Of a stretch of 50,188 bases of DNA, positions 22,255 to 47,774 are shown piece after piece. This DNA is from Bodo saltans (Eukaryota > Euglenozoa > Kinetoplastea > Eubodonida > Bodonidae): the NCBI GenBank assembly GCA_001460835.1, contig CYKH01000868.1:2926-53113 (forward strand). Reading direction: 5' to 3'. Below the pieces are notes generated by a model that had not been told where the DNA came from, made no database searches, and was given only the letters and a program-made list of their open reading frames with translations. Position numbers and translations under genes: made by a program. The stretch's first letter is position 1, and each line of letters begins with the position of its first letter.

Positions 22255-24252
22255 ATGCAACGCGAGTCACTCCAGTCACCAGCAAGAGTGTCAAGTTCGC
22301 ACGCCACAGAAGAAGACGCTGTGCGCATGGCTTCTGCCTCGCTGCACTCCTCGATTCGGAATTTCCGCCAGACATGCTTGCCGTTGCTAGCGCCACAATC
22401 CAAAGGTCTTCCCGTCAAGCACACCGTGAAGGTTTTTGTGTCACGCATGACGGAAGAAATGACAGCTAGCGCTTTGGAGTGCCTGCGTGTACTGCCACGA
22501 GATCGAGTGCTTTTCGAGAAAAGGAGACGTGACCTGTTGCAGTGGCTTTCCATTTCTCCTCCTTCAAACAACAATGGCAACAATGATGCTACACCGTTGT
22601 CACTCATGTTTCTTAATGACCTGAAGGAGCGACTGACTCTTCACTACGCCGAGGCCGCTGGAGGCGCTGCGTCTCGCTTGACTGTGGAACCCACAACGGA
22701 GACGCTCACTTGCGTTCCGGCAGTCGTAGTGTTGCGTGTGGCGGAGCAGTTATGGGCGCAGAGGCAGACGAGCACCGCTGAGCGTCTTCTCTGGAAGGAC
22801 GGAGTGGAGGAACTACTGACAGTGGGAGGAGAACAAGAAGAAACTTCTGGGACGCTCCCTGCAGAATCGTTCTTGCGCAATTGTGTTGTGTTATCAAAAA
22901 CGGATGAGGTACCTCTTGGTTCTTCTCCAACATCAACAACATCTCGGAGTCTACTGGCTGCCATTGTCGAACTTTGGGCGTGGTGCAAAGCGACTGATAA
23001 CATCAACGCTGAAGAGGAAGTTGAGTCGGCGTTGCAAGAGCAGACGACGAAGTCACTTCTGGCATGCTGGTTTCCTGCCCAGGGAGCAGCGGATGATTCT
23101 TGGCCGCAAGTTATGTCGAGAGTGATGCAGCGTGTGTCAAAAAAAAAAGTGTGTTGTGTTATCAAAAACGGAAGACGCACCGCTTAGTCCTTCTCCAACA
23201 TCAACAACATCTCAGAGTCTACTGGCTGCCATTGTCGAACTTTGGGCATGGTGCAAAGCGACTGATAACATCAACGCTGAAGAGGAGGTTGAGTCGGCGT
23301 TGCAAGAGCAGACGACGAAGTCACTTCTGGCATGCTGGTTTCCTGCCGGAGGAGCAGCAGATGATGCTTGGCCGCAAGTTATGTCGAGAGTGATGCAGCG
23401 TGTGTCATCCTTACAACAGCGAGCACGAAAACGCAACGCGACGACTGTGAGCGATTCTTCACCTGCTGTCTCGCCGTCCAGGCAACAACTTCGCGATCAA
23501 CTTCTGACCGGAGCGCCGGCACGCCCGCCAAATGCATGTCACCGCATTTGTCGCCAGGAGATTTTCACCATATGATGTCGCCTTCCATTAGTGTATCACC
23601 CACCACCGTGCTACAACCTACATCCAATACCATCGTTATGGGAAATTCGCCATATTCTGATGTCGCCACGAAACCAAAATTCCAAGCTCGCCCCATCCGC
23701 ACGGCATTGGTGTCCGTGTCATCGTTTGTTTCCATTGCAAAGACTTCACCATCAACGAGCCACCCACAACAACAGGCAGGGCAACAGCCTCAGCCTCCAC
23801 GCCAATCTCCTCCAGTGGTCCTTAACTGCCGCTCTTTCAAACAATTCACAAGATTTGGCAGTGATGGCTCTCTGCCCACGTCCCCAAGGGGAGGGCAAGG
23901 GTTACCTCCTGTGTCCCCCACAGCGAATCCATCTCCGCGATCCTTCGCCTCTCTCCCTCCTACAGTGTCCCCCCATCCGCTGGGAACTTGTAGTGCGAAA
24001 GATAACGCTGAGCAGCATCCACTACCTCCTTCTTCGGCTAGGGTTGCGTCGTCACCGTCGCTTCTCCGTCCCGCGTCATCACCGCAGAACGCACCACGGC
24101 AACAGAACGTCGGTGCAAGCAGTAACGCAAGAGGTGGCAGCTCTTCGACTGTCATATCGCCAAGAGCGCTGACGTCGGCATCATCTGCTCGTGTTCTCTC
24201 AGCTGGAGGAACAACAAAAAACCGTACGACGTTGACAAAGAAATCAAAATGA
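22255..24252 (+). CDS. Unrecognised protein; frame broken by a duplication junction and a second shift
   Basis: The gene starts at the ATG at 22255 (MQRESLQSPARV). A helical, Ser-containing N-terminal region of about 290 residues includes LAAIVELWAWCKATDN. The DNA 22881-23138 recurs at 23149-23406 after ten A residues, shifting the frame by one and causing a premature stop at 23185-23187. If one copy and the A run are removed, the frame continues to 23575. A further shift near 23530 would then lead into a long Ser/Pro-rich frame ending at 24252, with repeated SPR and PPSS-type segments. One gene with two sequence errors is the simplest reading; two separate genes are possible. No family is recognised. 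Confidence 0.5.
22881..23406 (+). repeat. 258-bp direct duplication with ten-A junction
   Basis: Bases 22881-23138 and 23149-23406 match with a few percent differences. Exactly ten A residues at 23139-23148 lie between them. The offset of 268 shifts the reading frame. Confidence 0.9.
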
Positions 24253-25927
24253 TACTCGCTGAGAAGAAGACGAAAAAAGAATGTGTGAATTTGTCGCTCT
24301 ATTCACCACTGCTTGTCCGTTTTGAGCTCCATTCCTATTTTGTCGTATTCTGTGAAGTTTGCCTTCGACAACTTTGACAGCTGCAAGACTCGATGTGATT
24401 CAGCGTTACTCGGAATCCTACCTCGATAAATTCAGCAGGTAGAAACGCAAAGTTGAAGCTTCGTGTGGGCAAATAGGAAAATAAGAGTGGGGGCTCATTT
24501 TTGTTTTGTTTTGTTTGTTTCCTTTTCACGTAGCGCTGTTTGAGGTCTAAATTTGAATTCGCACTTGTTTGCGTATGAGCTCAGAACAGGTTCAATCCTC
24601 CTGTGTTCCGCAGGGTTGATGTTGATTTATTCGTGTGTTTTTATTGAGAAAAGAGAGAGAGTCTGCTTTTGGATCCGTCAACTACTAATCTGACCACAAA
24701 TACTTTTTTTTTGTTTTTTTTACGTCCGCTCCGTGCCGAGAGGACTCTATTTAAAAATTACCATCTCTGCACCTGTTTGCTTTCCTCCCTCACACTTTTT
24801 TCTTTCTTTGAAGTTGCCGCGTTCGGTTTTTGTTTGTTTTTGTTTTTGTTTGTTTGTTTTGACTGATCGTCCCTCATCCGTGTGGTGCATATCAAAGTGC
24901 TTCAGTCACAAAATCTATTCATGTGTCTGACTAATTGACGTTGTTATTGCGGATATGCCCCTGGCCACCCGGTGACCGAGAGTCTGTTACTAGCTGGGAA
25001 AAAAGGACTCCGTACAAAGCAAGAGTAGGACAACTTACAAAAATCCTTTGACAAAAAGTCAAAAAAAAAATTTGCGGAAATGATGATTTTGGGGTGCACC
25101 CCCTCAGTCCAAAAGTCGGCATGCATTTTCATTTAACGCTGCTCTTGATGCACTATTTTTTCCAAAATGTTTCCCGGTGATCTTTTTTTTGGCCGCCGCA
25201 GGCGCCGCTCTCGGTCAAAAGTGGCCAGGACTATACTAGAATAGAATATCATCCTCAAACAAAAAAAAGGAACGTTCTCGCTCGGATCGTCTGTTGGCCA
25301 GCGTTGCGCATACACTCCTGAACCTCCCTCCTCGTTGATGATCCATGCGTTACCCCCCTTTTTCCCTTACCTTCCGCAATTACCCTCCGCATTCAAAAAA
25401 TACTTGCGGTATATGATCTGCGCGTGTTTTTTAAAAAGAATGAGCCGCACATACACACAAACACAATTCGAGGGAATACATTTAATCGCCAGTTCTGCGA
25501 TTTCCCCTTAAAATGAAACAACATCGTGATGGCCAGCGAAAATCTGAAATTGTCCAAATTTTGAACCTTCGATGAAGAAGTGGTCCAGAATCCGCTCGAT
25601 TAGCAAATGTGAAAGTTTGATTTGTACTGTTTATGAGAGGGGGGGGCATTGGGGGGTATCAGGCCTATTTCTGGCTTATTTCTTGCCTAAGGTATTTTTG
25701 AGCTTTTTTTTGTAGATTGCGATATTTCGAGATATTAATTCTTTCTGTACTTTATTGCGATTTTTTCGTGAAAAAAACCTCAGGAAGCAACGGTACACAT
25801 AGGAGATATTTCGGAGATATTTTGGAGATATTTATTCAAAAAGCGATTGCTAAGGGAGAAAAAAATATTTCTGAAATTGCTCGTTACTGACACCCCTTGA
25901 AAAAATGCCCGCACAAATAATCTGACG
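24253..25927. other. Long gene-free, A+T-rich stretch
   Basis: No conserved protein is found on either strand. It contains T/G runs (24500-24530, 24830-24860), a ten-A run at 25061-25070, a G-rich patch at 25638-25656 (G8 and G6 runs) and GAGATATTT-type repeats near 25719-25833. It may include the 5' non-coding part of the element that follows. Confidence 0.55.
25719..25833 (+). repeat. Scattered GAGATATTT-type short repeats
   Basis: The motif GGAGATATTT occurs three times in near tandem at about 25802-25833. Related GATATTTCGAGATATT sequence lies about 80 bases earlier. The repeats sit about 100 bases upstream of the GIY-YIG frame and might belong to the element's leader. Confidence 0.5.
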
Positions 25928-26548
25928 ATGCACGACATTGGTGTCGTCTACGTTGCGATTTATACTCGGACAAGACAGTTTTACATTGGTCAAACTTCGG
26001 CCGATTGTATGGCTCGATTGAAGGCCCACCATAGCAAGCGAAATGCTACGCACCATTCAGAACTTTCGCATTTTATGCGCATCGTTCCAGACTGCATGTC
26101 GAACATGTTCATCTTGCCAATTGCTCACTCAACGAACGCGGATGAAAGAGCCAGAGAAGAATTGGCTTTTATCGACAAGTACGCGCATCTTAAAGGGATG
26201 CTGAACAGAAACGAAAAGTTCACAAGGAACAGACCCAAGAACAGAACCAGAGATAAGATCTTCGAACCTCGAACGCAAGCCAAACGAACCGACCAGCCCT
26301 TCAACGCAAGACGCAACCTGAACCCTCCGACGGTAAGGCCGCAACCCATTAGCCAGGCAAATCGACTCAAGATGTATTTCGACGAGTCACACGACAAGGC
26401 GAAGCAATTGACGCTGTTACGAACTGCAACGAAAAAATCGGACTTCCAAGCTCATCACTCCATCACTTCAGCAGAAAAATTTCACTACTTCTTCGCTGTT
26501 ATCGACATCCTACTTCTACAAGACAAACTCCAAGTTCCTCACGACTGA
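25928..26548 (+). pseudogene. GIY-YIG nuclease-domain part of the retroelement
   Basis: 206 residues from the ATG at 25928. The motif GVVY at residues 5-8 and YIGQT at 19-23 form the GIY-YIG core. Arg30 in RLKAHH, Glu77/78 in EELAFIDKY and an Asn in MLN match the positions of the remaining conserved residues, so the nuclease part itself may be intact. The C-terminal half is basic and would suit nucleic-acid binding. After the stop at 26546-26548 the same frame resumes with RT-like sequence, so this is probably the N-terminal part of a longer broken protein. Confidence 0.6.
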
Positions 26549-26557
26549 GTACTTCAA

Positions 26558-27354
26558 ATGCGACGCAGACAATTGCACCAAAATCTTGACAACCCGGATC
26601 CAAAAAAGAACTGGGGAGTTAAGGAATGTTTAAGCGCTTCAATACCTCCTCACAACGCTTATTATTCAAACCACTTCGGCATTGTTCAAAAAGCAATTGG
26701 AATTGGAATGGGAATTCCAAACTCCCCTCCAGCTTCTTCAATCGGTCTCTCAATTCCAGAAGCAGACTATTGTCCGCATGATCCAACAAAAGGAAAATAT
26801 TATGTGAGAATGCAACTGCGAAACTTCAAAACCTCCACCAGATGCATCGACGACATGGGAACCGAGTCAGCTGAAATTCCAAGCAAGACAAACTATTTCG
26901 ACATGGAAGTCATCAGAACGGCAAGCTGTCCACCGGATGAATCGATCGATTCTAGCGTATACATTCATGCCTTCTCCAAACGGTATTGTGTCCTTCAAGA
27001 ACAAGCAAGCCAACTTTCCAGTCCTTCTGATCAGATACCCGAGCCATATGACAGTAACCGAGACGAGCAAAATTGGATCGGTAGTTGCAGGAATTTTATC
27101 CATCTACCGAGTGATTGATTCACCATCTTGTTCAAAGCCGGTATCAAAGAATTCTTCGACATTCTTCAAGCACGCAGATTTACCGTAAAACCATCAGACA
27201 AGGGATCCTTAAATTCCTTAAGACGAAATTGCCAACGAGAATACATTGGATTTCTTCTACAACATTTCTTCACAGACATCATCGTCACGTGGCCAGAGAA
27301 CGTGTGGCGAAAGACAGGTCATACCGGCCGTCCGACTACAGCACCATCAGATAG
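26558..27354 (+). pseudogene. Reverse-transcriptase remnant, several frame changes
   Basis: RT-like motifs occur in frame at 26558-27000 (GMGIPNSPPASS, RCIDDM, NYFDMEVI), then move to another frame at about 26937-27118 (FPVLLIRYPSH, VAGILSIYRVIDS). A further change at about 27128 gives FKAGIKEFFDILQARRFT, resembling the thumb region after the palm. The motif A aspartate expected upstream was not located, so that part is lost or too diverged. The copy cannot encode an intact RT. Confidence 0.55.
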
Positions 27355-27990
27355 ACTTCGACACGACCTTGCAAGGATTACAATTCCGCAATATGCCTTG
27401 CACCTTCAGACCCCTTACAGAAAGAACGTTACCACCTCCACCACCGGGATAAGGAAGGTGATTCTTCACGCAGCTCTTCCGCATTTTATTCTTGCGGCAG
27501 CGATTACTATTGACCTCAGAATCTTTTCTGGGGGCCCGCCGGCTGACCACCGAGGGACTAAAATTATTCGAAAGATGGTAATCCCTCTCAACAAAACAAG
27601 GAAACCCACCAACATTATCAGTTGGCCCCTCTCATCACTGACATCAGCTTCAAGTCTTCAGACCGCAATTGTTCCCCGATCTCGAAAGTACCAAGGACCA
27701 TCAACTTTTTCAACATCAACGTACCACAGCAGCGACCATCATCAAGGCGAATCTTCTATTTCAGCAGACAACAGGCGTTTCCAACTTTGACTGCGACAAC
27801 GACCAACAAGGCGACCGACCAACAGCAACTTCCAGGCAAGGCATTCTTCAAGCAACGAGCACCCCCGCAGGCCAACCGATGGCCTAGGCCCCCACACCGC
27901 GAAACGTGCTGGTATTCAAAACGTTGGATTTCTTGTGCCCGGCGCCGACGTTTTAGTTTTGTGAAAGTGTATGTGACCAATAGTTAGTGC

Positions 27991-28504
27991 AACCAAACAT
28001 GTACAACAAACGACAAGCACAAAAAGATGAGAAGCACTTGTTTGACAGATAGCAATATTTCATGAGTTGTTATTTTACTGTGAGTCTTTGCTCGCCCCCC
28101 TTTATTTGATTTTGTATCTCGTGAGAAGAAAGTTGAGTTGGCACCTTGGCAATGATTTAATGTACACAACAGTATGAGCGAGAATTAGGCATTTTGAACT
28201 GAACAGATCGAAGCCTCCGCTGAAAAATCAGTATAACAAAGAAAATCTCACTTGGTTGAGAGTTACCAACGCAGGTGTCAATCCACGATCTTGTTTTTAG
28301 ACAAATTGCATTTGGGATCGTTACAGAGAAGAAATATTTTGAGTGCGCACATTTTCAACAATTCGCCAAAGCCGTATGCTCGACGTACTGTCACAAAAAT
28401 CTTTTTTTTTTTGATGTCAGGTGCAGTGCGAAATGGTGTGTCCAAAAAAATATTTCGAGAGAAAAACCTCTTTTTTTTTTTAAATTCACAAGAAGGCAGT
28501 GGGA
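27991..28504. other. Intergenic stretch between the retroelement and the eIF4E-like gene
   Basis: A+T-rich with two T runs of 11, at about 28402-28412 and 28471-28481. The second is followed by an AG just before the next start codon. No gene is recognised. Confidence 0.55.
28471..28499 (+). promoter_or_regulatory. Putative trans-splice acceptor
   Basis: Eleven T residues are followed by an AG at 28498-28499, five bases before the ATG at 28505. This supports the start of the eIF4E-like gene. Confidence 0.5.
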
Positions 28505-30187
28505 ATGACTACAAGGCTTCATGGCCGATTGAGTTGCATCTGGGCTATTTACACTGATAAAGGGCTCGATTTGAGTGCGCAAGCTGGATCAACATCAAAT
28601 GACCTTAGACTCGTTGGAGAGGCAGACTACGGCGAAGTATTTGTAGAAAAATTGCTCTTGCAAGCGAAAGACTTTGCAGGAGGATTGTACGTGTTCCGCA
28701 AGCATATTTCTCCAACGTGGGACTCGCTGTCAACTGGTGGACATTTCAGAGTGGAGCAGTCACTTTTACAGCAGAATGAAGATGAGCAGAAAAACTCGAT
28801 GGTTGATAAATTTGATTTTATTTGTGATGTTGTGGACGAAAAGTTGGCAAGAACCTCAATGATTGCTGGCGTTGGTCTTTGCAGGACTAGCATGCAGTCG
28901 ATGGTGTTGTCATTGTGGTTGATTGGAACCGAAAGCACTGTTGTGGAAAGCTTGAGGTCGGAGGTTTTCAGTCGTGTTGGCTCCACTGGTAAGAAAGCAA
29001 CGATTCGCTTTATCCATCACAACTCTATCAATGAATCAACAATTTCTCGACCTGGCGCGTTGTCAGTGATGCCAATGTTGCTGCACCTTGCGTTCCCTTC
29101 GATTAACATTAATGATCTGCCAGCTGCGGATGATGCGTCCGGCTTGACTCCCCCGGGAGCAAGTTGGCGAAGAGGAGAAGAGGCAAGCCCACCGCTGGGG
29201 GACCAAAGTTTTCAGCACGACACATTGAACACATCATTGAACCGCCACAGCAGCAGTTTAAGCGTTTTTGAGCACCACAAGGCATCATTTGAAAGCGGAG
29301 GGCTCCCAGCACCAACCCCCGTAACTGATTGGGCAAGCAGTTGGACTCCTTCAATGTTTTTTGCAGCTCATCAAAAGAGTTCCACTTCGACAGATACAAC
29401 GGCAACTTCTGGTCGAGAAAAATCTCCGAATGGCACGCCTCCCCCACAGTATGTTGTTCCTCTGGTTCAAGCCCACCCTTCACTCCCCACAGCAACTCAT
29501 GGTGTTGTTTTTCAAGGGCAGTCACTTTCACCTCCCCAAGTTGCTTTGCCACACTCGCATCTTCCACAACCACAAATTCCAGAGTCCGTTGTGATGTCAT
29601 ATTTGCCAGTTGAAGCAAACGTAAGCTTACCCCAACCTCAACAATTTGCGGTGCAACCTTTGCACTACAGTCATTTCAGCAATCCCCCTCCAGTCATCGG
29701 CTTCGGAGCTCAACAGCAAGTTCAATTCTTTCCCCAAACTCAAAACTTCAACACATCGCAAGGGCCGCAGTCGTATTTCAGAAACTCAGCCCCTGCACCA
29801 CCACCATTTCATCAAAACTTTAGTTATTCACCGTTCGTCAGCGCACCCCCACAGTATTCAACAAGTGTGAAACCCGCTTCTTCGCCACCACCAGCAGACT
29901 TGTCGAAACTCCAGCCAGGAGATCCACTACACCCTCCTCACAGAGGATGCCGAGGAGCACCTCAAAGTGAGAGAAAAGCCTTTGTCTTTCGCGGAAAGGT
30001 TTTTCCTCCCTTTCTCAACCGGAAAGAATACAGACTTATCGTACATCACTGCGACGATACAATCCCACCACCACTGGGTCAAGGTGTTGACAGAATTGAT
30101 GCATTTCCAGCCCCACATGGGGTTGTGGATGGTGATATTGAGCTGGAAGTCTATGAACAGTGGTACCTTGCTCAAAAGAAAAAGTAA
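28505..30187 (+). CDS. eIF4E-like cap-binding protein candidate with Pro/Gln-rich tail
   Basis: 560 residues from the ATG at 28505. Residues 10-200 resemble translation initiation factor 4E. An IWAIY strand near the start matches the WALWF strand, and HISPTWDSLSTGGHF (about 68-81) matches the GIEPMWED..N..GGRW motif, giving the cap-contacting Trp as Trp72. Other parts are weak. A Pro/Gln/Ser-rich disordered region follows (200-470). The C-terminus (about 485-560) is a separate charged, probably folded segment starting near KAFVFRGKVFPPFLNR. Kinetoplastids carry several divergent eIF4E paralogues, some with long extensions. The call rests on a short motif and needs profile support. Confidence 0.45.
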   Translation: MTTRLHGRLSCIWAIYTDKGLDLSAQAGSTSNDLRLVGEADYGEVFVEKLLLQAKDFAGGLYVFRKHISPTWDSLSTGGHFRVEQSLLQQNEDEQKNSMVDKFDFICDVVDEKLARTSMIAGVGLCRTSMQSMVLSLWLIGTESTVVESLRSEVFSRVGSTGKKATIRFIHHNSINESTISRPGALSVMPMLLHLAFPSININDLPAADDASGLTPPGASWRRGEEASPPLGDQSFQHDTLNTSLNRHSSSLSVFEHHKASFESGGLPAPTPVTDWASSWTPSMFFAAHQKSSTSTDTTATSGREKSPNGTPPPQYVVPLVQAHPSLPTATHGVVFQGQSLSPPQVALPHSHLPQPQIPESVVMSYLPVEANVSLPQPQQFAVQPLHYSHFSNPPPVIGFGAQQQVQFFPQTQNFNTSQGPQSYFRNSAPAPPPFHQNFSYSPFVSAPPQYSTSVKPASSPPPADLSKLQPGDPLHPPHRGCRGAPQSERKAFVFRGKVFPPFLNRKEYRLIVHHCDDTIPPPLGQGVDRIDAFPAPHGVVDGDIELEVYEQWYLAQKKK

Positions 30188-35400: not shown

Positions 35401-38200
35401 GTTTGAGCACGGATGACATCAGCGCCGAGTTGCAGAAAGTATTATACCAGTGCATCGTAAGTGGCGCAGATATGCAACGCCGGGGTGGATGCGGTCTTGT
35501 CAAGATTTCATTCACGATCGCAGCAACTGTAACAGTTTCAAACGTCTACTGTGATGCCCTATTAGCTCCAGATGTTTTTGGTTATGCCCCTCGAATGCCG
35601 GTAGTCGAAACTCGGAACATCGTTATTGAAACTAGGGGATCGTGCTTCATTGGAGTGGTCCCATCTTGCTTTGTGATCGTGAGTCCTGAGCAACCACTGC
35701 CCATCGAATTACCCCCAAGGATTCTTGTCGAGAAGCAAATGGATGAAGTAATCATCTTCCCTTCGATCTACAAGATCAATGGGCCATTGCAGGTTCATCG
35801 CTCGAAAATGTCTTCAATGCTAGCAACGGCCGAAGATGCGAATCAAGGCTTCGCTGGTGGTGCATTGACCATCGAAGTCGTCGACGGAAGCTCAAGTGAT
35901 CGGCTGAGCCTTCGTGATGATTTGCCATCATTGAAATTCGAATGTCATGAGAAAACGCGCGCTGTGCGAACCATTACACTGAATGGCTCTACTATCGGAG
36001 AAGTCGTTGACGGATCAATTCAATCAACCAAGTATGTGCTGTCAACAAACAATCTCCACGTTGCACCAAGAGTGGTGATTTCCTTGAGGGACCTTGCTTC
36101 AGCCGCCAGTCGAATTAGTCCAGAGTCTGTGAAGACCATATTAACTCGCTTGCGCTATCACAATTATGACGTTGACCCTCAAGAAGGCCCTCGCATTGTC
36201 CGAGTCACACTACGTGGCTCGAACGGTGCGCAAAGCGTCCTCGACACTCACTTCGAAATTGAAGGGATCGACAAGCCGACTGAGTTGCGCATCGTGCACC
36301 AAAAGGTAACTCATCGCGCACCATTCTTGAGTTGCCCACCAGTTCTGCGAAGCAGTCTCATCAACACATTTCTTCCAGTGTTTCCAATGTGTGTTGTTTT
36401 TGATGAAGACACCGACCGCTTTAGCGGAGGAGGACTGCGCTTGACTCTCCAGGGAGGAGTGAAGGGCGACACTCTTGTCTTTGTACCAGACACCCGTGTC
36501 CTTTCTTTAGTAGATGAGATGATCGACACACTACCAGTGTTGCGCATCGTAGATCAGAATCAAGTCGTGTTTCAAGACCGCGTCGTTGCAACACTCATCG
36601 AGGGTAACGTAGCGCTTGACCAGGAGTTTCTTGACGCAAGCACAGCCTCAGAGACTCCATCACTTCGATTCGAGTTTGCGTCCGATGATGAGTGTAGTAT
36701 CAGTGCTGTCCAAGCGATCTTGTCCGTAACGCGGAAATGCAGATTAAACCCTGGTCTAAACCTCCCTTTCAACGCAACACTTCAGCGAGAAGTTCTATGC
36801 GAGCTCCAAATTCAAGACAATGAACAACCGACCCATATCACTGAGACTGTAACAGTTCGTGCTGCGGGTCATAGTATTCAGCTCCCTGATAAGGCGGCTG
36901 TTATCGATTTCAAAGAAGGAAGCCCACCAATCAAAATTGGAAATATTGATGTCAGTAATGACCGGGTGAAACCAATCACAACATTTTCAGGCTCGCAGAT
37001 TCTGGTGTACATTGGGGATGGCTATACTGAGGGTGATGTTATCGGCTTGAAACAAGACGACACTGAGTACAAAATATTGGAGCAAAAGCGTTCGGCAAAA
37101 CNNNNNNNNNNNNNNNNNNNNNNNNNNNNNNNNNNNNNNNNNNNNNNNNNNNNNNNNNNNNNNNNNNNNNNNNNNNNNNNNNNNNNNNNNNNNNNNNNNN
37201 NNNNNNNNNNNNNNNNNNNNNNNNNNNNNNNNNNNNNNNNNNNNNNNNNNNNNNNNNNNNNNNNNNNNNNNNNNNNNNNNNNNNNNNNNNNNNNNNNNNN
37301 NNNNNNNNNNNNNNNNNNNNNNNNNNNNNNNNNNNNNNNNNNNNNNNNNNNNNNNNNNNNNNNNNNNNNNNNNNNNNNNNNNNNNNNNNNNNNNNNNNNN
37401 NTTTCTTAGAGCTGTTCAAGTGACTGTAGTGTCACCACTTGAAGCTTCCGGGCGCCGTTCCATCTCCATTCACCCTGAGCCCGTCTATAGCATGCAGGAG
37501 CCTACCAATTCGCCAGCGCGCTCTCCTCTTCTTCAAAAAAAAAAGCATTTGACTTCAAGCCATCAGTTGCAGGGACGAAAGTAAAGCCGATGACGAAAAA
37601 CGCAATGCAACTGTTTCTTAGAGCTGTTCAAGTGACTGTAGTGTCACCACTTGAAAAAAAAAAATAGCATTTGACTTCAAGCCATCTGTTGCAGGAACGA
37701 AAGTAAAGCCAATGACGAAAAACGCAATGCAGCTATTTCTTAGAGCTGTTCAAGTGACTGTAGTGTCACCACTTGAAGCTTCCGGGCGCCGTTCCATCTC
37801 TATTCACCCCGAGCCCGTGATGAATGCATCTGCGTTCAATACATCAGCGTTCGGCACGTCCGGCAGCATCCAGGAGCCTACCAATTCGCCAGCGCGCTCT
37901 CCTCTTCTTCGTGACATAGCCATGCCAGAGATGCGAATCGATGAGCCCGCTGACAACGACCGAAAGCGTGCGTCGCTTGGTGGTAGCACTTCACCACAGC
38001 TCAAAGGCTTCATGGCAGGCCGCTCCCCTCGTGGGAGTATTTCACCAGTGACCAACAAACTTGTGCTTCCTCGTCCCAGGTCATCGCTTTCCAATGCACC
38101 GGAAGACGAAGAAGACGATACAACGCTAACTGTTCGGTGGACCCTTCATGACGGGAAGCATTTGTCACAGCTAACCGGCACAGTGGTCCCAAAACGATAG
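32457..38200 (+). CDS. Very large protein: zinc-finger-like motif, coiled coil, cadherin-like repeats; interrupted by a gap
   Basis: About 1,548 residues are read before the 300-N gap. After it come duplicated contig pieces and then roughly 180 residues to the stop at 38200. The start is taken at 32457. A CPHC..H..C zinc-binding motif lies at about 57-77, followed by an LRR-like piece near 250-310. A long Arg/Glu-rich helix at about 340-590 may be a coiled coil. From about residue 1,090 come at least two beta-rich repeats of the type FxGGxLxxxVxxGxxxDxLxxxxxLP ... ILTRLRYHNYDVDPQEGPR, like the cadherin-like repeats of bacterial giant adhesins and some protist proteins. No signal peptide or membrane segment is seen. 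A cytoskeletal or flagellar scaffold is only a guess. Confidence 0.65.
37102..37401. other. Assembly gap of exactly 300 N inside a gene
   Basis: Exactly 300 unknown bases fall inside the large repeat-containing gene. The sequence just after it recurs twice downstream, so the assembly is unreliable up to about 37,740. Confidence 0.95.
37402..37920 (+). repeat. Overlapping duplicated pieces joined by two ten-A runs
   Basis: Three pieces overlap in content: 37402-37534, 37545-37654 and 37665 onward. They are separated by ten A at 37535-37544 and eleven A at 37654-37664 (ten plus one native A). The first piece lacks 42 bases (14 codons) relative to the third within the Ser-rich tail, an in-frame length difference typical of alleles. 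The order of pieces is inconsistent with a real gene. Confidence 0.85.
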
Positions 38201-38376: not shown

Positions 38377-40294
38377 ATGTCGTCAACGAGCACACGGACA
38401 GCGCTCGATCGGCTTGTGCGCGAACACGAAGCCAAACGACGCCAAGAGGCGTATGGTACCCGAGCTAAGCTCCTTCTTTTGTCGATGATCTCCAGCGTAG
38501 CTGCTGTTGTGTACACAGTGTGCACGGCGCGACTGTGGTTGTTCACAACGCCACTAAGGACAGTCGTCATTGATGGTGTGATGGTCGATGTGGTAGCGGA
38601 CGATACCACGACGCATCTCTTGGCGCGTGCATCAGGTTTTGTTGTTGTGTTGTCGCTGAGTGTTATGGCCGCTATCAAGCTTGAGCTAGGGAAGTTGGTG
38701 TATGGGGAGGAAACGCCATCCACATCTTACCCGAGCTAAGCTCCTTCTTTTGTCGATGATCTCCAGCGTAGCTGCTGTTGTGTGCACAGTGTGCACGGCG
38801 CGACTGTGGTTGTTCACAACGCCACTAAGGACAGTCGTCATTGATGGTGTGATGGTCGATGTGGTAGCGGACGATACCACGACGCATCTCTTGGCGCGTG
38901 CATCAGGTTTTGTTGTTGTGTTGTCGCTGAGTGTTATGGCCGCTATCAAGCTTGAGCTAGGGAAGTTGGTGTATGGGGAGGAAACGCCATCCACATCTTC
39001 ACAAAGTTCAAGTTTGAAGCCACCCAACGCGCCTGCGCCCTCTGCGTTGTCCATAGCCCAGCGTCCTCAAAATCTCTCAAGCGACAACTCAGCAATGTGG
39101 TGGAACAGCACCAATTTGTCAGCCAACATTGCCATCACCAACTCTGAGGCGACGGTGCGCACTCTTGAAGATTTAGATGCTCTTATCCAACAAGGGAAGG
39201 GCCAACACAACGCACACAGAGAGGGCGATGCGTTAAGCGGTGGTCTCTCTAGCTTTGCTCCACCAAGTTACAGCGGCGTAAATGGACTTTTTTCCATGGG
39301 CGCTACTCACTCGCAAGCAGGTGGCATTGCTGTTCGGTACCAATCGTTGTCAGGAGGAGCGTTGGCGCCACATGATCACAACCAGAGGCAGGCTGCCACC
39401 TCGGAGTCTGAGTTCTCAGCGCTTGGCGTTCTTCAACCTGAGCGCTCCCTGCTGAAACTACGCCAATGGGCTGCTGGGTTATGCAAAGCTGTCGTGGAGG
39501 ACATCGACAAATGCGATGCGTGGCTTTCAGAAAAGCGGGTGCGTGGCTTTGATTGCAGTAGTTTATTATCCGAGCAGTACGAGTTACCCACGGCAGGGGG
39601 CTTTGCTCCCCGGCCCCCAGCAACTGGAACCTTCGGCACATTCGGAAGTGGCGCCATGGCACAGCCCGTTCAAGCGGCACAGCCAACAAAAATCTCGAAG
39701 AGCGAGGCACTTTTGAATGAAAAGCGCAAACTTCAAATGCAAAATGCGTCATCGATGGAAACATACGATTGCATGCATCGAATCGATTTACGATTGTCGC
39801 TGGAACAAGTGCTGGACGTTGGCGCTACATTTCCAAACATTGGTGGCTCGTCAAATGCTCAATCCGCAGCGCGAATGCGCCAAGGCATTATTCAAAGGTT
39901 GCGAGCCCTCGGCCAAAGTCGAAATCTTTCAAACATGACGACTAACAGCGACAAACCGTGGGTGCCAGCAGATCCATACATTTTGACGCACATTCTGAGG
40001 ATGCGAATTCCTTGCTTGGCGAACTATTTGCAACTTCCATACGCGATCCCGAGCGGGAGCAGCAGCGCACGAGATCTACGAATTTACGTTGGTGGGACAG
40101 GCGATCCTTACTTCTATGTCCGCCACCGAACTGGCATGCAGGAGAAACACATGAACACCGCCGAAGGCCCTGATTCACTTTTTGAGGCTCTACTGCTTTT
40201 CTTTGCCGTGATTCAAAGAGTCTACCATGGCGCCTACGGAAATGTTGAAGGGGTCGTCGACCTCAAACAACTTAATCTAGACACCATTTTGTGA
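38377..40294 (+). CDS. TMEM209-like (cytochrome b561 N-terminal family) membrane protein; frame split by a 271-bp duplication
   Basis: It starts at the ATG at 38377 (MSSTSTRTALDRL). Two hydrophobic segments follow (SMISSVAAVVYTVCTARLW and ASGFVVVLSLSVMAAIKL), then a long disordered region and a C-terminal domain of about 180 residues. That domain contains IIQRLRALGQS, WVPADPYILTHILRM and SLFEALLLFFAVIQRVYHGA, which match the MQRIKELAQ and LWDSILLLCHRIKVGYGG parts of the plant/animal TMEM209 family of nuclear-envelope proteins. The 271-bp direct duplication (38457-38727 and 38728-38998) introduces a stop at 38737-38739. With one copy, the frame is open from 38377 to 40294. Confidence 0.6.
38457..38998 (+). 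repeat. 271-bp perfect-tandem duplication, no spacer
   Basis: The segment from 38457 recurs at 38728 with an offset of 271 and almost no differences (for example TGTACACAG against TGTGCACAG). There is no A run at the junction. The offset is not a multiple of three and breaks the reading frame of the membrane-protein gene. Confidence 0.9.
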
Positions 40295-40405: not shown

Positions 40406-42948
40406 ATGATGAAGCGTGCTGAATCCAACCGAGAGCAGTTGCTGCACTTGGGCGTCACCGTTTGCCCACCACTGTTGTCATCGATGCTAGCACCGAAGGG
40501 GTGCGTGGGTGACCACGTGACCTGCCCCATCTTCGTGACGGAGCAGGAGGTCGCCACCCTCGAGGTGTTTTTCGCGGCACCCCTTATCGCGCCATCCTCT
40601 GGTAGAATTCCTCACGGGGCGTGTTACCGCTCAGAGAGGCGCTCTTGGTACGACATTTGCATTCACCCCAAAGGACTTTCGGATGCAGGTACAGACAGGC
40701 GACGAAGTCAACGTCCAACGTTTGGAGATTACTCATGGCTAAGAGTTGATCTCAAGCCATCGGAATTGACAGTACTTGAGGGGTATGGGGTGTCCACCAC
40801 CAGCACACCGACTCCAGGCACGCAATCATGGAGAGCACGTGTCGTATTGTTACTATGCCAATGGGTGCGAAATGCTTGGCTCATTAAGGAGCATGAAAAC
40901 TTCACCAACACTGTAGGAATACATGAACGCCTTGCGTTCGAATATTACTCCTTTCTTTGCGGCATTGCAGAAACATCTCAGCAGTGGGATACAGCATCTA
41001 TTCGCAGCAACCCCGCTACGTGGATGCAGCTGCATCCCCGGGTCATTATGTATTTCGACTCCATCGCATCCTCTTCGTCCACATTAACGTTTGGGGGAGC
41101 TTCAAGAGTACGCTGCCGCATCCCACTGCTGCAAGACACAGAGGTTGCGTCGAGGATCGACAGACAGTTATTACTGTGGATGGACCTTCGCGGCAAACTG
41201 CTCGACCTCCCCACAGCTCGCAGGAGCCACAATCGTCTCAAACTTGAAGCAACATTACGCATGGATTTGGGATTGATGAACTCTGTTGCGTATCGTGTTG
41301 ATGGTGAACGCGTGCACTGCTCGTTCGAGCACGCTGCCACCAGCACGAGTTCAGGCGAACATGCAGATTGGAGTGCTTGTCGCGATGTACTCCAAGTGAG
41401 CACTCTTTATTTTCTTGCAGAGGACCTCCCATACCAGAACAGGGACAATAGTTCGCCTTCTCTGTCGCCGCGAGCTGTGAATGATGTAGCACCAAGCGCT
41501 TCGCTTCGAGGCATCCCACCCTTCGCTGTGCTCCACCGATTGCAAAACGCAACGATCATGGAGTACCTCCCGACACTTGAGGAAAACATCATTGAACACT
41601 GCGTCGACACACCAGTGCATTACTTAAGTTTGTTATGGGCGATCACAGAGCACTTCGGGAGGCCGATTGACTTCTCAACCATCATGTGGAATGATGGCGG
41701 GCGTGAGTCGGACAAACGTAGTGCCACGTTTTTGGCGCCGTGGCCTCAGGAGCTTCGAATCTTAGTGGAAGTTATTTACAAAGGGCCTAGGGTGCTGCCC
41801 ACCGTAGCAGTACGATGCCCAGGCGTCATGATTCCTGGCACAACCAACCCGTTACAAACTGTTGCCAGGCTCCACGAAGGTGCTCTTCTCTTTTCCACAC
41901 GCCAATCCCTATTCAACGTCCAAACAATGGCCCAGGTCATTTTAGAAAGTGTCAACAAACGATGCGAGCAGATGTGGTCCATCATTGAGACTGCACGGCG
42001 GGAAGATCAAGAAAAGGTCATCGGCGAAGAGAGTCAGTGTCGTCTGGAGCTTTTGACAGGTGAGGGCGAGGCGATCGGCATCATAACGAACCAAGAAGCT
42101 GAAGACGTGACTTTGCGCCACGCTGCAGTCCAACAAGTAATAGCACCGGTCCCTGCTCACGTAGACCCGGTGATGGAACTGTTCTCTTGTCCACCCCAGC
42201 GTACCCACGCTCATGTGCAACTTTTCGAAGAAGACTACTTGAGTGTGCTGCAACCTCCAATTCGAACTCGAGAGTCAGTGCGGAGGGAAGATACAGCATT
42301 CCCTCGTAGTACGCTCATCGCTACTCCGGAAGGTGAACTTGAAATGACCCCAGCCGCACTGGAGCTTTCAGAGCCGCACAAGGATGCGGATGGAAACGAG
42401 ACGCCAGTGCAACACGTCACGATGAACCTCGTCGCAGACGCGTCTCAAGATGTCCTTTGTTCTAGTCATCGAGAACTATCTCCCGAGCAAGTAAGAAGAC
42501 ACGCAGCGGATGCAATATTGACCACTGAACCAGTAGAAGAGCCTGATGACATACCTACGTGCAGTGATCACGTTTCGACTGCCGATGCAATGAAGACAGA
42601 TGAGAATGGAGAACGTACTGCTGAGGCCACTGCTGCAGGCGACGAAGCCGTTGCGCTCTCCTCGGAAGATACGCCGAATGACGTAGTGATCACGTTTCGA
42701 CTGCCGATGCAATGAAGACTGATGAGAATGGAGAACGTACTGCTGGGGCCACTGCTGCAGGCGACGAAGCCGTTGCGCTCTCCTCGGAAGATACGCCGAA
42801 TGACGTGGTAGTGGCTGTTCCAGGTGATCCTCCTCTCTCTCGTGATGCAACTACCATTGCAGGTGAAGTAGAGGTTTCACTTCCTTCTCCAGCACTGATC
42901 GATGCCCCACCAATCAACGGTTTGTTACCATCCACAGGGGCGGAATAG
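40406..42948 (+). CDS. Unrecognised large protein; 3' end shifted by a 122-bp duplication
   Basis: The frame from the ATG at 40406 runs 769 residues to a stop at 42713-42715. A 122-bp direct duplication just before that stop shifts the frame. With one copy the protein would instead continue to 42948 and end near LLPSTGAE. The first 570 residues look folded, with strands and helices (QLLLWMDLRGKLLDLPTARR, TPVHYLSLLWAITEHFG, WPQELRILVEVIYKGPRVLP). The C-terminal 200 residues are acidic and probably disordered. No family is recognised, and no signal peptide or membrane helix is seen. Confidence 0.6.
42564..42807 (+). repeat. 122-bp tandem duplication, no spacer
   Basis: The segment starting at 42564 (GTGATCACGTTTCG) recurs from 42686 with an offset of 122. 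The copies differ at a few bases (GAAGACAGATG against GAAGACTGATG, GCTGAGGCC against GCTGGGGCC). The offset is not a multiple of three and moves the stop codon. Confidence 0.9.
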
Positions 42949-46907: not shown

Positions 46908-47774
46908 ATGCAACGGACATTAATAGCTCGGTTCTTCAGCCAGCACCGCACTCCTGTCATGCCGCAGGTGACAGTAAGCACGCCTTTGGATGCTCAGCAA
47001 AAGACGGTGCGGGTGGGGTATCTTTTGTGTCGAGGGCAAGTTGTGAAACACGCACCGCATCCAATCGAAACTGAGTTTTCGTATACCGTCGAGCGTGAGC
47101 ATCAGCGTTACTGCCGCCATGATGGCAGTGAGTCCGTGACGCACTTCTTAGCAACCCGAGGCCAAACAATGGACACTGTCAATCGCTCAGACGCGACTCA
47201 AATAATGGGGGACTTCTACAATTTAGACCTGTACCAGGACGCCGTGCGTGTCGTGATGCAGCGATTGCAACCAGAGAAGCGCAATACAGACGGTGATTTT
47301 ATGAGGCCACTAGACCCAGCGCTTGCCAATGGACCTCCATCTAGGATAACACTGAACAGGTCGCTGGACGATTTCTTGTATTTGATCATCAAGAACAAGG
47401 ACACTGGAAAGTGGACCATACCGTCATCGCTGCGCAAGGAGAACGAATCGCTAAGGACAGCAGCTGAGCGAACGATCACGGAGCACAATGGTGAAAACTT
47501 TGACACGTACTTGTGGTCCAACGCCCCAACTGCCGTGGTGCGCAGCGTGCCGAAGTCTGGGGACTCTACAACAGAAGAGCTGTTGTTTTTGTACTCTGCG
47601 TCGTATTTAGCTGGCCGCCCCCAGTTTGAGGCCATGGGTGCCGTTGACCACGCGTGGGTGCGCAGGGCTGAGATTCCCCAATACTTGGAGCAAGGATTTG
47701 AACACAAAGATATGATGTCTGTGTTGATGGACGTGACAATGGACGGCACGTTTGACGGTGCTGGTAGCTCTTAA
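46908..47774 (+). CDS. MRPL46: Mitochondrial ribosomal protein mL46 (MRPL46), NUDIX-like fold
   Basis: 288 residues, close to the family length. The first 20 residues (MQRTLIARFFSQHRTP) look like a mitochondrial targeting sequence. The NUDIX-like core matches mL46 at FLYLIIKNKDTGKWTIPSS, then ENESLRTAAERTI (family ETLRxTAERxL), and FLYSASYLAGRP followed by VDHAWVRRAEIPQYL (family KASYLSG..xDHVWVTRDELPEYL). The hydrolase signature of active NUDIX enzymes is absent, as usual in this family. It is a structural protein of the large mitoribosomal subunit. Confidence 0.85.
   Translation: MQRTLIARFFSQHRTPVMPQVTVSTPLDAQQKTVRVGYLLCRGQVVKHAPHPIETEFSYTVEREHQRYCRHDGSESVTHFLATRGQTMDTVNRSDATQIMGDFYNLDLYQDAVRVVMQRLQPEKRNTDGDFMRPLDPALANGPPSRITLNRSLDDFLYLIIKNKDTGKWTIPSSLRKENESLRTAAERTITEHNGENFDTYLWSNAPTAVVRSVPKSGDSTTEELLFLYSASYLAGRPQFEAMGAVDHAWVRRAEIPQYLEQGFEHKDMMSVLMDVTMDGTFDGAGSS

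Follow-up and report, generated by a model that had tools for sequence, protein, structure and literature searches.

The 50,188-nucleotide (nt) stretch of the Bodo saltans genome considered here, the window (GenBank assembly GCA_001460835.1, contig CYKH01000868.1, positions 2,926 to 53,113 of the forward strand), very probably contains a dead copy of a Penelope-class retrotransposon with permuted domains, to which a probability of about 0.88 is given. In this element a GIY-YIG nuclease, a linker with a CxC motif, and a reverse transcriptase (RT) resembling that of telomerase (TERT) follow one another in a single open reading frame (ORF). The copy is 2.2 kb in length, on the + strand, and is 5'-truncated, with internal deletions and frameshifts, as seen by tblastn with three related proteins (P0001, P0003, and P0004). 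The initial annotation of this DNA, made from the letters alone, had recognized a decayed retroelement at 25928 to 27354; the element is there, but its limits are not those, the true copy running from about 25897 to 28100. Homology to P0004 starts at 25907, and the copy is bounded by CCCC before it and by CCCCCC at its end. With deletions and frameshifts in its RT and linker, this copy cannot work. Its parts are as follows, with C291 and C405 being other places in the assembly where pieces of the element occur.

25893 to 25896, + strand: CCCC bordering the 5' end of the copy, probably from the target C-run (sequence; C-runs at 12 of 19 scored 5' junctions)
25897 to 28100, + strand: probable permuted Penelope-like element, decayed and 5'-truncated copy (tblastn with P0001, P0003, and P0004; 3' end common to 21 of 25 other matches)
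25928 to 26548, + strand: ORF of 206 aa, GIY-YIG and start of the linker, with the final ~46 codons out of the element's frame (ORF list, tblastn)
25940 to 26206, + strand: GIY-YIG nuclease domain, retaining GVVY, YIGQT, R30, E78, and N93
26210 to 26401, + strand: start of the linker, RPQPISQANRLKMYFDES..., matching RPQPISKANRVKLYFDES of P0004 (tblastn); the portion 26292 to 26399 recurs at C405
26401 to 26407, + strand: deletion junction, CxC linker and N-terminal RT gone, about 330 codons (P0004 residues ~286 to ~613 without counterpart, tblastn)
26407 to 26585, + strand: RT fragment, motif A lost with a ~173-nt deletion at 26531/26532 (comparison with C291 and P0001)
26558 to 27118, + strand: 186-aa ORF carrying the RT motifs GIPNSPPAS (26711 to 26737) and RCIDDM (26840 to 26857), aligned to GSPHSPPAS and RYIDDM of P0001
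27015 to 27125, + strand: part of the RT, FPVLLIRYPSHM..., read in another frame (tblastn), presumably the thumb from its motif
27128 to 27513, + strand: frameshifted remainder of the RT ORF up to its C-terminus, ...GSDYY TGA (P0001 residues up to 637)
27514 to 28100, + strand: 3' untranslated region (UTR), of which 27926 to 28100 is a repeat family present at 24 other places
28090 to 28100, + strand: common 3' terminus GCTCGCCCCCC (copy ends compared)

The nuclease, linker, and RT pieces stand in the same order in the window as in P0004, with the nuclease and RT halves in different frames. P0001 is colinear with the RT pieces over 26585 to 27412, at 59% identity and interrupted by one stop and several gaps; the database for this comparison comprised only seven sequences (E 1.6e-101). 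The view that these pieces belong to a single element first came from a colinear second copy, C291:15428-16325, which matches window positions 26407 to 26672, 27504 to 27610, and 27926 to 28001 in that order and does not have 26673 to 27503. The C291 copy has kept open reading across the segment with motif A (DFSTMYTNFP, here and in P0001) that lies inside the ~173-nt deletion of the window copy, which compared with C291 is missing a further 45-49 nt near 26585. The RT reading stops at the TGA at 27511 to 27513 and is followed by 587 nt of 3' UTR.

The motifs named in the initial annotation are real, with GVVY...YIGQT in the first ORF and GIPNSPPAS and RCIDDM in the second; FPVLLIRYPSH is also present (27015 to 27047), although in a different frame from these two. 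That they are more than chance is evident from the colinearity with P0001 and from the GIY-YIG ORF, which in a large protein database finds P0003 at E 7e-37. The RT half had been described as broken, as its deletions, frameshifts, and one stop bear out, and the nuclease half as intact, which holds for the residues invariant across eight aligned proteins, all of which are retained. The nuclease has a predicted fold like that of I-TevI. In Pfam it scores 19.8 bits (E 0.001), under the cut-off of 22.6, while P0003 is above it at 25.9 bits.

The relatives provide the order of the domains. Among 122 candidates found with the RT piece of C291, two proteins have E values of 1 or less: P0001 (637 aa), which is 99% identical to that piece over 165 residues and 97% over a longer piece, and P0002 (628 aa), which is 81% identical. 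A profile of these two finds at least 11 proteins, both included, all with E 6e-70 or better (best 7993 candidates scored), and the GIY-YIG ORF of the window yields one of 51 candidates, P0003 (222 aa, 66% identity over 59% of the query), giving at least 12 relatives (P0001 to P0012). Six are single-ORF fusions of GIY-YIG and RT (P0004, P0006, P0007, P0008, P0009, and P0010) of 967-1114 aa, and every one of them has the nuclease ahead of the RT, as the initial annotation had proposed. Their nucleases pass the Pfam cut-off in P0006 and P0008 and fall short of it in P0004, P0007, and P0009, while that of P0010 (Pfam E 0.12) rests on the alignment; the N-terminus of P0009 is directly at the nuclease. 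The other relatives are partial: P0005 begins within the linker and has no nuclease, the predicted ORFs of P0001 and P0002 begin before the RT core with neither linker nor nuclease, P0011 and P0012 are fragments lacking the nuclease, and P0003 is a nuclease-only call.

The predicted fold of P0004 has telomerases as its nearest solved structures, both for the RT and for part of the linker, and on this model the RT of the family is TERT-like. Telomerase RT itself has no nuclease and is not mobile, but the RTs of Penelope-like elements (PLEs) are known to be TERT-like, in agreement with the Penelope-like reading of the initial annotation. Searched by sequence, PDB had nothing of note for the GIY-YIG ORF or the RT pieces of the window, nor for the profile of the family.

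Between nuclease and RT, a CxC pair is invariant in the seven relatives that span it; in the window copy it is deleted. No cysteine upstream of the CxC is common to five or more relatives, six of which have the nuclease region, and the nuclease is therefore without a conserved CCHH. The nuclease-first PLEs of Craig et al. 2021 reportedly carry a CxC linker, with the Chlamys group lacking CCHH. Naiads are animal elements with CCHH in the nuclease, and the PLEs of both groups have an insertion-in-fingers domain in the RT and are not known to carry a hammerhead ribozyme. The nuclease-first order, the CxC, and the absence of a conserved CCHH point, as features of the sequence, to Chlamys. The Chlamys elements share with this family the N-terminal GIY-YIG, the CxC linker, the RT in last position, a nuclease with no conserved CCHH either within it or ahead of it, and insertion into simple repeats; Naiad shares the first two and an RT but has a nuclease with CCHH, which is not conserved here. 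The present element differs from Chlamys in being in a kinetoplastid and in favouring C-runs between genes, and is likened to it by features and not by phylogeny, since the tree compares the relatives only among themselves, with no outgroup and no reference PLE.

Canonical Penelope/Poseidon elements, such as PAc of Anolis, also have a TERT-like RT and GIY-YIG in one ORF (PMC11167929). In PAc the nuclease is C-terminal and there is a hammerhead ribozyme at the locus, whereas here the nuclease is N-terminal and Rfam gives no hammerhead or other RNA match over 25000 to 28700 up to E 5, in a copy that is truncated. The VIPER/TATE, ingi, and CRE elements belong to the same host group but have other RTs and other nucleases or recombinases (PMC12278014, PMC4728078, PMC6681497). 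A word search of the accessible text of two kinetoplastid retroelement papers (PMC12278014, PMC6681497) finds no mention of GIY.

Pieces of the element, mostly its 3' end, are present at no fewer than 24 other places in the assembly. A 661-base query around the 3' end has 26 matches including the window, the 25 others being at 24 places (the copy in C372 is split), and 21 of these 25 end at query 192-212 (window 28091 to 28111). The four exceptions are C896 (contig end), C918 (runs into N), C372 (first half of the split copy), and C291. In contrast to this common 3' end, the 5' starts are spread over query 27-164. Most copies terminate in ...TGCTCGCCCCCC or near variants, followed by unrelated flanks. 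The sequence TGCTCGCCCCC, counted together with the short partner family described below, is found at 69 forward and 6 reverse positions across the assembly; the control, the same word read backward, gives 6 and 4.

Long RT coding is kept only by the window and C291 copies in the protein searches of this assembly, which found no intact copy (best candidates scored in both cases); 26 residues of the RT C-terminus are kept in C218. Since P0001 is nearly identical to the C291 piece, an intact copy may lie on other short contigs. The copy in C400 (L028) has one tandem stub after it, and no full pseudo-LTR (long terminal repeat), which like tandem partial copies is a mark of PLEs, was seen, none being sought systematically. 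There is a weak P0004 match at C246:14865-15263 (residues 148-281, E 0.038), within a 258-codon open frame. The start of the linker is found at C405:6805-6921 (forward), with two short inverted pieces nearby (L045, 4806-4922 and 7302-7386), as a scrambled remnant.

At the 5' junction, CCCC is present in 12 of 19 scorable copies; of 46346 positions taken as background, 2724 (5.9%) have it, which gives a binomial P of 6e-11. In five of these 12 the C-run is the terminus of a short-family copy, and some of the 19 copies are not independent of one another. A junction was scored for CCCC from 20 bases before it to 3 after, with the window copy excluded. Dropped from the count were L029 (N on the 5' side), L033 (C291), L036 (half of the L015 copy), and L025, L006, and L008, where homology continues upstream. 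Of these last three, by eye, the true junction has a C-run in C13 (L008) and none in C765 and C836. The genome-wide search called for in the initial annotation thus produced the common 3' end, but neither an intact copy nor, among the copies, any target-site duplication beyond the C-runs. When the flanks of 25 loci are compared, duplicated flanking sequence is seen in L020 and L032.

The copies lie in the sense of the neighbouring genes. In a count by eye of 44 flanks at 23 loci, 26 of the 27 flanks whose longest stop-free stretch is at least 200 codons have it on the strand of the element, the exception being downstream of L025; the C291 flank is the element's own RT and was dropped. Contigs of this assembly often seem to be in gene sense, with nine of nine PFR matches forward, yet two of four RT matches reverse, and the 69:6 bias of TGCTCGCCCCC may come partly from this. 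The comparison with flanking ORFs is independent of contig orientation. An origin of the sense bias in C-runs confined to the sense strand was rejected: in the window, runs of five or more number 36 for C and 22 for G, and with an excess of only this size, target supply alone is insufficient. Selection against antisense insertions may explain the bias.

A second terminus ending in C is found on the 5' side of five copies (L026, L028, L014, L015, and L039) and on the 3' side of L021. A search with this short family gives 16 matches, including the query's own place, with varied starts. Its members, ending in TGAGTTAATGCTCGCCCCCC, include C372:11662-11785, C771:11486-11573, C121, C533, C157, and others (L059, L060), often beside Penelope copies. 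The evidence for a common 3' end of the short family is from seven directly read places, because five of the 16 matches start at contig base 1 and the query ends at the C-run. The family and the element share their last ~20 bases, TGAGTnnnTGCTCGCCCCCC, and no protein relation between the two is seen in the loci examined. The simplest reading is that the short family is non-autonomous and is moved by the element. It is tentatively suggested, at somewhat less than even odds, that this is a kinetoplastid lineage of nuclease-first Penelope of its own, which targets C-runs (polypyrimidine tracts) between the genes of polycistronic units, in the sense orientation, and mobilizes a partner like a short interspersed nuclear element (SINE) through TGAGTnnnTGCTCGCCCCCC.

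The likely mechanism of an active element of this family would be for the GIY-YIG nuclease to nick a C-run in the DNA between genes. The strand ending in G would then anneal to the element RNA at its terminal ...GCCCCCC and prime reverse transcription, and where this stopped early, copies would be truncated at their 5' side while all sharing the same 3' end.

Some observations weigh against a single mobile element of the Penelope kind. The RT pieces, including ORFs 26558 to 27118 and 27128 to 27790, have no matches in Pfam, and the initial annotation had held that pieces which failed to hit RT profiles would not be those of a retroelement; RVT_1 misses the near-intact relatives as well, so that the Pfam profile is blind to the family. 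The nearest RT relatives, P0001 and P0002, have an ORF without GIY-YIG, and P0003 is a GIY-YIG protein without RT, as would be expected if the nuclease were a separate gene, such as a homing endonuclease or a host nuclease like SLX1, with an RT fragment adjoining it by chance. A separate GIY-YIG gene does exist in the genome (C547:17572-17805, L051, open frame of 671 codons) and from its layout is presumably SLX1-like, but it is at a different locus and unrelated to the element. The six fusions in the same order, and a window linker which after the nuclease is that of the fusion protein P0004 and in part recurs at C405, largely refute a separate nuclease, which the initial annotation had foreseen as an objection and which is now very improbable.

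Still less credible is an element of the tyrosine-recombinase type (VIPER/TATE, with the order of DIRS), whose end in C13 would be the source of the shared 3' tail. In C13 an RVT_1 match, VIPER-like by eye, does lie 1.3 kb upstream of a tail copy, but by eye that copy follows a C-run of its own and starts downstream of the RT fragment, and in C291 the tail comes once the PLE ORF has ended. A VIPER origin of the tail was rejected by visual inspection of the aligned tail copies. There is no Pfam match to a tyrosine recombinase or RNase H in the twelve relatives, although the recombinase of VIPER/TATE sits in another ORF, possibly off the short contigs of the relatives. The tyrosine-recombinase RTs of this genome, typed by eye, look unlike that of the element. 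These DIRS-type retroelements, VIPER/TATE-like by eye, are at C144:4940-5284, C90:23188-23715, and C431:9083-9424, one with an open frame of 1884 codons. An unlikely alternative, though one deserving more credit than either of these, is a third, separately permuted PLE clade outside Naiad/Chlamys, with a TERT-related RT and an N-terminal GIY-YIG. The divergence of the RT beyond detection by RVT_1 and the preference for C-runs would fit such a clade, while a CxC linker and a nuclease with no conserved CCHH agree with the features of Chlamys.

The host, from its sequence, is a kinetoplastid, as the initial annotation had supposed. MRP-L46 is encoded at 46908 to 47771 of the window, with matches to 7aih/7ane (E 8e-86) and 6hiv/6hix (3e-81), which we take to be Leishmania and Trypanosoma mitoribosomes; the next of the 15 matches is at 5e-7. 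PFR (PF05149), presumably a euglenozoan protein, has nine matches in the genome. Its absence from 14 control genomes says little, because these look prokaryotic. Against PDB there is no match for the PFR protein at 1e-10 and none for ORF 28499 to 30184. The window also has five two-copy tandem duplications (1818 to 2520, 22882 to 23407, 37535 to 37777, 38457 to 38999, and 42563 to 42806), with units of 122-360 bases matching at 94-99%, which are recent duplications or assembly artefacts.

In the accessible text of PMC4728078, the B. saltans genome has ingi, SLACS/CZAR, VIPER, and TATE, and the available portion of a 2025 survey of 57 trypanosomatids again gives four clades, named for B. saltans too (PMC12278014). 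Merlin is presented as the first DNA transposon reported for kinetoplastids (PMC8101967), and the Chlamys elements of the brown alga Ectocarpus are called the first PLEs in TSAR (PMC12477816, 2025). The elements reported in these accessible texts, ingi, CRE, VIPER, TATE, and Merlin, include no PLE, as the initial annotation had said in calling the lineage unusual. No report of a PLE in a kinetoplastid was found in the literature searched, partly available as it was and with most subscription journals outside its coverage.

A PLE in a relative of the trypanosomes appears to be new; the element is of a known kind, and what is new is the group of its host. Because PLEs are the retroelements closest to telomerase, how they are distributed among eukaryotes matters for the question of where telomerase came from. 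With a kinetoplastid as host, that distribution would gain another deep branch, which would suggest that the permuted form is either old or moving between lineages. As a target, C-runs between genes provide a simple and testable model of priming.
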